The translations under genes and the position numbers were made by a program. A stretch of 64,000 bases of DNA from Chryseobacterium sp. (lineage in GTDB: Bacteria; Bacteroidota; Bacteroidia; Flavobacteriales; Weeksellaceae): contig JAITUA010000003.1 of the NCBI GenBank assembly GCA_031286615.1, positions 1-64,000 on the forward strand, read 5' to 3'. Of this stretch, positions 50,962-59,866 are shown in pieces. Numbering within the stretch: the stretch's first letter is position 1; each line of letters begins with the position of its first letter. The notes below the pieces were generated by a model, which worked only from the letters and a program-made list of their open reading frames with translations, searched no databases and was not told the origin of the DNA.

Positions 50962-51090
50962 TTTGTTGTAATTAAAAAGTTCAGTAAAAATACTGAGAAA
51001 GTTTCATAAATGGAAATTATTTGATTGCTTTAACAGGCTATGGCTGCAATAGTTTTTGAGTTTTTTGGATTTTTAAATTTCCGGTTATAA

Positions 51091-51370
51091 ATTGGTAGAT
51101 GCTTCGACAGGCTCAGCATGACAACTCTAATACTATGTGTTTTATTAACGCATATCAGACGATTGAGAATCAAAAGAAGACTGAATTTCTGATTATTAAT
51201 TGGTAGATGCTTCGACAGGCTCAGCATAACAACTCTAATACTATGTGTTTTATTAACGCGTATCAGACGATTGAGAATCAAAAGAAGACTGAATTTCTGA
51301 TTATTAATTGGTAGGTGCTTCGACAAGCTCAGCATTACAACTCTAATACTATCTGTTTTATTAACGTGTA
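51091..51370. repeat. 108-bp tandem repeat, two full copies and one partial
   Basis: Units start at 51091, 51199 and 51307 with ATTGGTAG(A/G)TGCTTCGACA and differ at a few positions; the third ends near 51370. Each contains the dispersed flavobacterial motif GCTTCGAC(A)GGCTCAGCAT. Period is exactly 108. Confidence 0.9.
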
Positions 51371-57209: not shown

Positions 57210-57392
57210 AGTATTAAATCAATTATGCGAAAATAAGGCTTTTATCTTATTTTATGCGGGTTTTAACAAAATTTAAAAATTTTGGCGTAGTATTTGCGAA
57301 TATAGACCTGTCAAACTGCAAATAAGAAAATAAGTTTTATAAAACTAAGCCCTAGAAATCAAACAAAAGTTTAGTAATTATTTATTTTTTTG

Positions 57393-57400
57393 TATTTTTG
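57393..57400 (+). promoter_or_regulatory. -7 promoter box of the cysteine-synthase-like gene
   Basis: TATTTTTG fits TAnnTTTG, 30 bases before the start; -33 region not conserved. Confidence 0.45.
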
Positions 57401-57430
57401 CAGTCAGATTTTTATTGAAAATAACAAATA

Positions 57431-58468
57431 ATGAGTAATGTTTACGATAATATTCTTGGCCTAATAGGAAATACTCCTATGGTGAAGCTAAATACTGTGA
57501 CAAAAGATATTCCAGCAACCGTTTATGCCAAGTTAGAATCATATAATCCTGGACATTCCACCAAAGACCGAATCGCACTTCACATTATAGAGAACGCAGA
57601 GAAAAAAGGCCTTTTAAAAGAAGACTCTGTAGTTGTAGAAACTACATCCGGCAATACTGGGTTTTCTATTGCGATGGTATGTATCATTAAGGGATATAAG
57701 TGTATTCTTGCAGTAAGTGATAAAACAAAACCTGAGAAAATTGCTTATCTGAAAGCATTGGGTGCTACGGTGTATATATGCCCAGCCAATGTACCGGCAG
57801 ATGATCCAAGATCATACTACGAAGTTGCTAAAAGAATCGCCCAGGAAACTCCTAATTCTATTTACATCAATCAATATTTTAACGAGCTGAATATTGATGC
57901 GCACTATCAAACTACAGGTCCCGAGATCTGGGAACAGACGGAAGGTAAGATCACTCACCTTTTTGCCTGCACCGGAACCGGAGGTACGCTATCGGGCTCA
58001 GCAAAGTTTTTGAAAGAGAAAAACCCTGATATCAAGATTATCGGAGTAGATGCGGATGGCTCTATACTAAAAAGCTATCACGAAACAGGAGAAATTCACA
58101 AAGAAGATGTACATCCTTATCAGATTGAAGGAATGGGTAAAAACCTGATTCCTGCTGCTCTGCTTTTCGACAAGGTGGATGAATTTGTAAGGGTAAATGA
58201 TGAAATGTCGGCGTACAGAACCCGTGAAATTGCTTTGAAGGAAGCCATTATGGGAGGTTATACTACCGGAGCTGTAACACAGGGATTGATGCAGTACGCC
58301 CAGTCTCATGAACTTACAGAAAACGACATAGTTGTTTTAATATATCCTGACCACGGTTCAAGATACATCACTAAAGTTTACAGTGATCAATGGATGGCCG
58401 AACAGGGATTTGTCAACAACTGTGTTCACAATTATGACGAAGTTTTCAAAACTGAGTTTATCAAATAG
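57431..58468 (+). CDS. cysteine-synthase-family PLP enzyme, likely cysteate synthase
   Basis: 345 residues, fold type II. NILGLIGNTPMVKLN, NPGHSTKDRIAL with PLP Lys45, VVETTSGNTGFSIA (substrate loop, residues 71-77) and LFACTGTGGTLSG (phosphate loop), and IYPDHGSRYITKVY near the end. Together these identify a CysK/CysM relative. The next gene is an Spt/Kbl-type acyltransferase; in sulfonolipid-making Bacteroidota such a pair makes cysteate from O-phosphoserine and sulfite and condenses it with a fatty acyl thioester to give the capnine precursor. That role is inferred; plain cysteine synthase is the alternative. Confidence 0.85.
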   Translation: MSNVYDNILGLIGNTPMVKLNTVTKDIPATVYAKLESYNPGHSTKDRIALHIIENAEKKGLLKEDSVVVETTSGNTGFSIAMVCIIKGYKCILAVSDKTKPEKIAYLKALGATVYICPANVPADDPRSYYEVAKRIAQETPNSIYINQYFNELNIDAHYQTTGPEIWEQTEGKITHLFACTGTGGTLSGSAKFLKEKNPDIKIIGVDADGSILKSYHETGEIHKEDVHPYQIEGMGKNLIPAALLFDKVDEFVRVNDEMSAYRTREIALKEAIMGGYTTGAVTQGLMQYAQSHELTENDIVVLIYPDHGSRYITKVYSDQWMAEQGFVNNCVHNYDEVFKTEFIK

Positions 58469-58485
58469 AAACGAATAAAATCACG

Positions 58486-58523
58486 ATACAAATAAAGCCT
58501 TTTGCGTATACAGACAAAAAAGG
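58486..58523 (+). promoter_or_regulatory. hairpin between the two sulfonolipid genes
   Basis: AATAAAGCCTTTT and AAAAAGGCTTTATT flank a 13-base loop, forming a 12-13-bp stem in the 81-bp spacer. It may terminate or weaken transcription into the second gene, or be a processing site. No long T run follows. Confidence 0.5.
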
Positions 58524-58549
58524 CTTTATTACTTAAAAATTACGATACA

Positions 58550-59824
58550 ATGTTGGATATTTTTGAAAGAATAAAAGAAAATCCAGGACCACTTGGACAA
58601 TTTGCAGATTATGGTGAAGGCTATTTTATTTTCCCGAGATTAGAGGGACCTATCGGCCCTAGAATGCAGTTTCAGGGGAGAGAAGTAATTTTCTGGAGTG
58701 CCAATGACTATTTAGGATTGTGTAATCATCCTGAAGTAATAGAAGCGGATGCTAAAGCGGCTGCAGAATATGGAATGTTCTATCCAATGGGTGCAAGAGC
58801 GATGTCTGGAGAAACAGATCAGCACCTTCAGCTGGAAAGAGAATTGGCAGACTTCGTACAAAAAGAATCAGCATACTTATTGAATTTCGGTTACCAGGGA
58901 ATGGTTTCTACCATTGATGCTTTAGTAAGCAGAAATGATGTAATTGTTTATGATATGGATTCTCATGCCTGCATCGTGGATGGAGTAAGGCTTCATTCCG
59001 GTAAAAGATTTACCTACAAGCACAACGATATGGCAAGTCTTGAGAAAAACCTTCAGAGAGCAACTAAGGTAGCTGAAGAAACGGGAGGAGGTATTCTTGT
59101 TATTACAGAAGGAGTTTTCGGGATGAGAGGACAGCAGGGAAAAATCAAAGAAATCTGCGATCTTAAATCTAAATACCAGTTCAGACTATTAGTAGATGAT
59201 GCCCATGGTTTCGGAACACTTGGTAAAACAGGTGCCGGTGTAGGTGAAGAACAGGACTGCAATGATCAGATTGATGTATACTTCTCTACGTTTGCTAAAT
59301 CAATGGCTGGTTTCGGAGCATTCCTTGCGGGTGACAAAGAAATCATCAGATATCTGAAATTCAACCTTAGATCTCAAATCTTCGCAAAATCTCTTACGAT
59401 GCCAATGGTAATCGGAGGATTAAAAAGACTGGAGCTGTTGAGATCAAAACCTGAGATCAAAGCTAAACTTTGGGAGAATGTTTACAAACTACAGAACGGA
59501 CTTAAGGAAAGAGGATTCAATATTGGAGATACCAACACTTGTGTAACTCCGGTAATGATGCAGGGAACTCCGGTAGAAGCAACTTTACTGGTAAAAGACT
59601 TAAGAGAAAATTACGGTATCTTCACATCTGTGGTGGTATATCCGGTAATTCCGAAAGGAATGATTCTTTTAAGATTGATTCCTACCGCTTCCCATACAGA
59701 CGCAGAGATTAATGAAACTCTGGCCGCGTTTGAAGCAATTCATGATAAATTAGTAAGTGGTTACTATAAAGAGCAGGAACAAAAATTACTGCAGGAACAA
59801 GGATTAAGTTTTAAACCAATTTAA
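58550..59824 (+). CDS. alpha-oxoamine synthase (Spt/Kbl type), likely cysteate acyltransferase
   Basis: 424 residues from the ATG at 58550 (MLDIFERIKENPGPLGQFAD); the longer frame crosses the hairpin. Family motifs: FWSANDYLGLCNHPEVIEAD, GARAMSGETDQHLQLERELA, LNFGYQGMVSTIDALV, DMDSHACIVDGVRL, LLVDDAHGFGTLGKTGAGVG, and STFAKSMAGFGAFL with PLP Lys250. The enzymes join an amino acid and an acyl thioester with decarboxylation: serine palmitoyltransferase, Kbl, or in Bacteroidota the cysteate-fatty acyltransferase of capnine synthesis. The neighbour upstream favours the last. Cytoplasmic face of the membrane. Confidence 0.88.
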   Translation: MLDIFERIKENPGPLGQFADYGEGYFIFPRLEGPIGPRMQFQGREVIFWSANDYLGLCNHPEVIEADAKAAAEYGMFYPMGARAMSGETDQHLQLERELADFVQKESAYLLNFGYQGMVSTIDALVSRNDVIVYDMDSHACIVDGVRLHSGKRFTYKHNDMASLEKNLQRATKVAEETGGGILVITEGVFGMRGQQGKIKEICDLKSKYQFRLLVDDAHGFGTLGKTGAGVGEEQDCNDQIDVYFSTFAKSMAGFGAFLAGDKEIIRYLKFNLRSQIFAKSLTMPMVIGGLKRLELLRSKPEIKAKLWENVYKLQNGLKERGFNIGDTNTCVTPVMMQGTPVEATLLVKDLRENYGIFTSVVVYPVIPKGMILLRLIPTASHTDAEINETLAAFEAIHDKLVSGYYKEQEQKLLQEQGLSFKPI

Positions 59825-59836
59825 TTTAAAAATAAA

Positions 59837-59866
59837 AAAAACCACTGATTGATTCAGTGGTTTTTT
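59837..59866 (+). terminator. intrinsic terminator of the sulfonolipid pair
   Basis: Stem AAAACCACTGA / TCAGTGGTTTT with a five-base loop and six T. Confidence 0.88.

Follow-up and report, generated by a model that had tools for sequence, protein, structure and literature searches.

A Chryseobacterium gene pair predicted to encode the first two steps of sulfonolipid synthesis

Described systems and the present gene pair

According to PMC11211663, earlier work on Chryseobacterium gleum DSM 16776 had assigned the first two enzymes of the sulfonolipid route, a cysteate synthase (Cys) and a cysteate fatty acyltransferase (CFAT). Sulfonolipids including sulfobacin are reported from this species in PMC10191378. 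The latter source, a review, also reports CapA, CapB and CapC of Capnocytophaga, of which CapA and CapB convert phosphoserine to cysteate and then condense it to 3-ketocapnine, and attributes an archaeal-type cysteate synthase to Alistipes and Odoribacter. The CFAT of Flavobacterium johnsoniae is Fjoh_2419, and sulfonolipids are stated to have been lost on its deletion (PMC9304779, citing Vences-Guzman et al.). The protein structure 7u7h is given as SulA of Alistipes finegoldii (PMC9304779).

The window, the whole stretch of 64,000 nucleotides analysed here, belongs to a Chryseobacterium genome of 4.88 Mb that is 99.92% complete. Two neighbouring genes are considered:

57431..58468, forward strand: capA-type cysteate synthase gene (345 aa, PF00291; named from the best NCBIfam match, CapA, and the tree grouping)
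58550..59824, forward strand: cysteate fatty acyltransferase gene (CFAT/CapB/SulA; 424 aa from ATG, PF00155; named from PDB matches and residues)

The first-pass annotation had described a cysteine-synthase relative followed by an alpha-oxoamine synthase, and both open reading frames (57431-58468 and 58502-59824) were found in place on the forward strand with no other ORF of at least 100 aa separating the two. The CFAT frame is open from a TTG at 58502 (440 aa), 16 codons upstream of the ATG at 58550; the latter is the better start, since residue 1 of PDB chain 28eh aligns with residue 17 in the 440-aa numbering. Over these 440 residues the protein is 100% identical to those of C. sediminis (L054) and Chryseobacterium sp. 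GVT01B (L055).

As judged by sequence comparison, the pair very probably forms a two-gene unit for the two opening steps of sulfonolipid (capnine/sulfobacin) synthesis. This agrees with the earlier annotation, which had proposed a cysteate synthase and a cysteate-fatty acyltransferase, and is supported by the PDB matches, by the lysine at the position of SulA Lys281 and by the scores of CapA against those of cystathionine beta-synthase (CBS) and CysK. Chance is not the explanation, with E-values of 2.6e-164 for the first protein against the CapA model and 5.9e-193 for CFAT against 28eh, and with the recurrent gene order described below. As far as the published description extends, the pair is likened to Cys and CFAT of C. 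gleum, being of the same genus and comprising the same two kinds of enzyme. The likeness to CapA and CapB of Capnocytophaga, for which the same two reactions are described as are predicted here, is also one of description, and the window protein scores under the NCBIfam cut-off for CapA. Fjoh_2419 is by its description a CFAT like the product of the second gene. Alistipes differs in that its cysteate is attributed to the archaeal-type synthase, with no CapA homologue according to PMC10191378.

By family, the first enzyme would be a pyridoxal phosphate (PLP) enzyme of the cysteine-synthase/CBS fold in which the phosphate of O-phosphoserine is replaced by sulfite to yield L-cysteate. Family and conserved residues suggest that the second, a PLP-dependent alpha-oxoamine synthase, would form the external aldimine of cysteate at Lys266 (SulA Lys251) and condense it with acyl-ACP, with loss of CO2, yielding 3-ketocapnine.

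Identity of the cysteate synthase

The best NCBIfam match of the first protein was CapA (NF053679) at 545.7 bits, 54 bits below a cut-off of 600 that is a database threshold and no biochemical property; the name CapA-type is used for this reason. That cut-off was passed in 26 of 247 genomes sampled across the phylum, all of them from f2, another family of the same order, and, in a sample of 148 genomes from the window's own family, in just one. Scores against CBS (TIGR01137, 364 bits, cut-off 510.25) and CysK (TIGR01139, 258.6 bits, cut-off 350.95) lay below the respective cut-offs. The best PDB match was 9k2p with 443.5 bits. The protein carries a KDR motif with lysine 45 and TSGNTG at 72, both of which have PLP-related roles.

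A tree of 21 hand-chosen rows placed the window protein with two orthologues of its genus (support 100/100). A nine-row group (100/98) comprised these three, 9k2p and five f2 proteins above the CapA cut-off, and a ten-row group (100/99) added the CFAT-adjacent protein of genome G037; the CBS-like paralogue of the window genome (L021) and the other CBS-like rows fell outside. The first protein thus groups with over-cut-off CapA proteins, apart from CBS-like proteins and CysK. Only the inner groups are trustworthy, because just three of 18 branches were starred and four rows were long-branched (CysK, G065 of f23, G037 and 9k2p). Twenty-two positions were invariant in CapA (eight rows) and never so in CBS-like proteins (ten rows); 9k2p shares 15 of these and the CFAT-adjacent protein of G037 shares 9, which leaves the latter doubtful.

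The occurrence of CapA across the phylum was assessed using two thresholds of our own: a protein was termed CapA-grade above 500 bits, a line exceeded in 31 genomes with the next score at 492.6, and CFAT proper at 385 bits or more, the next match scoring 257; the counts for the phylum and family samples were tallied by hand from tables. The 31 of 247 CapA-grade genomes consist of the 26 over-cut-off f2 genomes, four of the window's genus and G037, and CFAT proper was present in 89 of 247.

It is very unlikely that the first gene encodes a cysteine synthase or CBS lying beside CFAT by happenstance, with cysteate derived from elsewhere. Consistent with such an arrangement are the sub-threshold CapA score, an identity of 47.5 to 52.5% to CBS-like proteins and the 58 of 89 CFAT-bearing phylum genomes that manage without a CapA-grade protein. 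Against it, identity to the five over-cut-off CapA proteins with which the protein groups is higher, at 59.9 to 62.4%; all 31 CapA-grade genomes also hold CFAT; and the genome already possesses both a separate CysK gene (L022, 412.4 bits, above the cut-off) and the paralogue L021 (CapA 444.6 bits, CBS 431 bits, neither above the cut-off). The window CapA would be expected from its family to make cysteate from phosphoserine and sulfite. We consider it very improbable that CapA proteins of the Chryseobacterium family, whose scores lie between those of f2 CapA and CBS-like proteins, form a sub-family of their own with a serine donor or sulfur nucleophile unlike that of Capnocytophaga CapA.

Identity of the acyltransferase

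The best PDB sequence match of CFAT was 28eh, 'Cysteate-C-fatty acyltransferase', at 644.8 bits, followed by 7u7h at 569.7 bits; all other PDB matches, serine palmitoyltransferases (SPT) being next, scored 230.1 bits or less. The protein is therefore nearer, by PDB bits, to the characterised cysteate enzymes than to SPT, Kbl, BioF or ALAS. In the alignment with 7u7h, 251 of 420 aligned residues were identical. Comparison of the active site with SulA, as the first-pass annotation had proposed, found ten of ten residues kept (Asn53, Gly115, Tyr116, His140, Asp217, His220, Thr248, Lys251, Lys281 and Arg376), and the same ten were conserved in all 80 named relatives, the best 80 of 258. The counterpart of Lys281 is Lys296 in the 440-aa numbering. 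This lysine, an alanine in SPT, is described as the sole clear difference between the active sites of SulA and SPT and as a possible means of distinguishing them (PMC9304779).

Eleven NCBIfam models matched CFAT, all below cut-off and with no CFAT model among them. Three of these were SPT models, at 289 (cut-off 640), 271.6 (cut-off 500) and 199 bits (cut-off 670). Searching the whole genome with SPT model NF047600 gave zero matches above cut-off, and none of the genome's four alpha-oxoamine synthases scored above cut-off with the two others. That the second gene encodes an SPT, the pair serving sphingolipids or ordinary serine and cysteine metabolism, is very unlikely: CFAT belongs to the same superfamily and an SPT model does match at 289 bits, but this is far from its cut-off of 640, the SPT structures score well below both cysteate enzymes, and the protein has lysine rather than alanine at the Lys281 position, the meaning of which is taken from PMC9304779. 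A closer match to true cysteine synthase or SPT was looked for and not seen, CapA and the cysteate enzymes scoring higher; both readings were rejected on PDB bits, Lys281, model cut-offs and the separate CysK. The window CFAT would, from its family and residues, make 3-ketocapnine from cysteate and acyl-ACP.

Elsewhere in the same genome, contig C19 carries a 418-aa alpha-oxoamine synthase (L017:1408-2661, forward strand) that scores below every NCBIfam cut-off and has, by eye, alanine at the Lys281 position.

Two further relatives, from genomes of the phylum sample and 46-47% identical to CFAT, follow an AMP-binding ligase and a phosphopantetheine domain within one fused frame, with the Lys281 equivalent kept by eye:

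L152:3574-6912 (G219), reverse strand: fused CFAT relative, 1113 aa
L153:2337-5849 (G179), forward strand: fused CFAT relative, 1171 aa

Their domain order suggests that these proteins may load their own fatty acid. Synthesis of a halocapnine-like sulfonolipid is a guess; the halocapnine route is referred to as not well defined in PMC6508672.

Pairing, gene order and transcription

CapA and CFAT are not always paired, as the 58 phylum genomes with CFAT and without a CapA-grade protein demonstrate; the archaeal-type cysteate synthase may account for some of these. The two genes are neighbours in 16 of the 31 CapA-grade genomes: all four of f1, 11 of 26 of f2, and G037. We take f1 to be Weeksellaceae and f2 to be Flavobacteriaceae, which is our inference. 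Throughout g2, a large genus of the same order that is perhaps Flavobacterium, the genes lie apart (14 of 14 genomes), seven times on the same contig at more than 100 kb and seven times on different contigs.

Within the window's family (148 genomes, CapA accepted at E up to 1e-145), CFAT was present in 147 genomes and CapA in 142, of which 141 hold CFAT; the exception, G264, is 80% complete with 7% contamination. Six genomes had no CapA at that level. CFAT of G344 and G296 starts less than 950 bases from the edge of its contig, which would leave capA outside the assembled sequence. Completeness is 76-81% in G256, G327 and G336. The sixth, G346, belongs to the window's genus and is assembled as one contig; in it capA is split over two frames beside CFAT (G346:C1:1541945-1542980), either by a lesion or by an assembly error.

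In 77 of the 80 named loci CFAT is immediately preceded by a capA relative, a count biased to close kin because these loci were the top 80 from a set of 258 relatives. Two of the exceptions have CapA elsewhere in the genome (Riemerella anatipestifer, L117, 570.1 bits; L120, 555.7 bits), and the third, L108, a 1.5-Mb metagenome assembly, yielded no CapA match in that genome.

Three genomes of one genus of the family (g129) possess an additional CFAT relative that shares 61-62% identity with the window CFAT; at L155, the only one of these loci inspected, no capA lies beside it:

G259:C1:3763251-3764441: second CFAT relative
G326:C3:461400-462590: second CFAT relative
G343:C6:1042940-1044130 (L155:4941-6170): second CFAT relative

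The window pair is flanked by two candidate transcription signals:

57393..57400, forward strand: promoter-like motif TATTTTTG (TAnnTTTG), starting 38 nt upstream of the ATG of capA
59836..59866, no strand assigned: terminator-like hairpin in the gap that separates CFAT from the EamA gene, a 13-pair stem with a T tail on the reverse strand

TAnnTTTG, which we take to be the Bacteroidota-type promoter consensus, is present in the 70 nt upstream of capA in 73 of the 74 loci that could be used (of the 80), compared with 152 of 1480 single-base shuffles; being related, the loci are not independent. By eye, the hairpin has its palindrome and a T run on the forward strand too, and it probably closes the two-gene unit; from this arrangement capA and CFAT probably share one transcript. 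A sigma-70-type scan, which does not cover Bacteroidota promoters, found no site on the forward strand from 57280 to 57500, and its five sites overall were fewer than in shuffles (mean 10.0). Rfam gave no match to the window at gathering scores.

Relatives of the neighbouring genes were also present among the 80 loci: the EamA gene in at least 44, the next ORF in at least 23, the radical SAM gene in at least 52 and the divergent TMEM260-like gene in at least 73, these being lower bounds because several loci end early. Separately, an ORF at 51030-51335 (reverse strand) consists of three copies of a unit beginning MLSLSKHLPI, and is perhaps an intergenic DNA repeat and not a gene.

Later steps and significance

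Genes for the ketoreductase and N-acylation steps would sit elsewhere in the genome; the ketoreductase genes of C. gleum are described as not adjacent to those for cysteate synthase and CFAT (PMC11211663). A search for short-chain dehydrogenases returned 43 matches in 30 loci. Nine of the 30 loci were run on NCBIfam, with the 25 best families taken for each, and four of the nine matched the 3-ketodihydrosphingosine reductase model; a 3-ketocapnine reductase was not singled out among these nine, the best score being 182.5 bits (L042) against a cut-off of 400.

Enzymes of both kinds have already been studied in a sister species. Given the reports of Cys and CFAT (PMC11211663) and of sulfonolipids (PMC10191378) in C. 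gleum, the window genes are very probably orthologues of known enzymes of Chryseobacterium, and they add little, since Chryseobacterium already has known enzymes of both kinds and the pair occurs throughout much of the family. For the strain itself, the pair marks a likely producer of sulfonolipids, lipids reported to matter in gliding of F. johnsoniae, rosette formation by a choanoflagellate and the responses of macrophages (PMC10191378).
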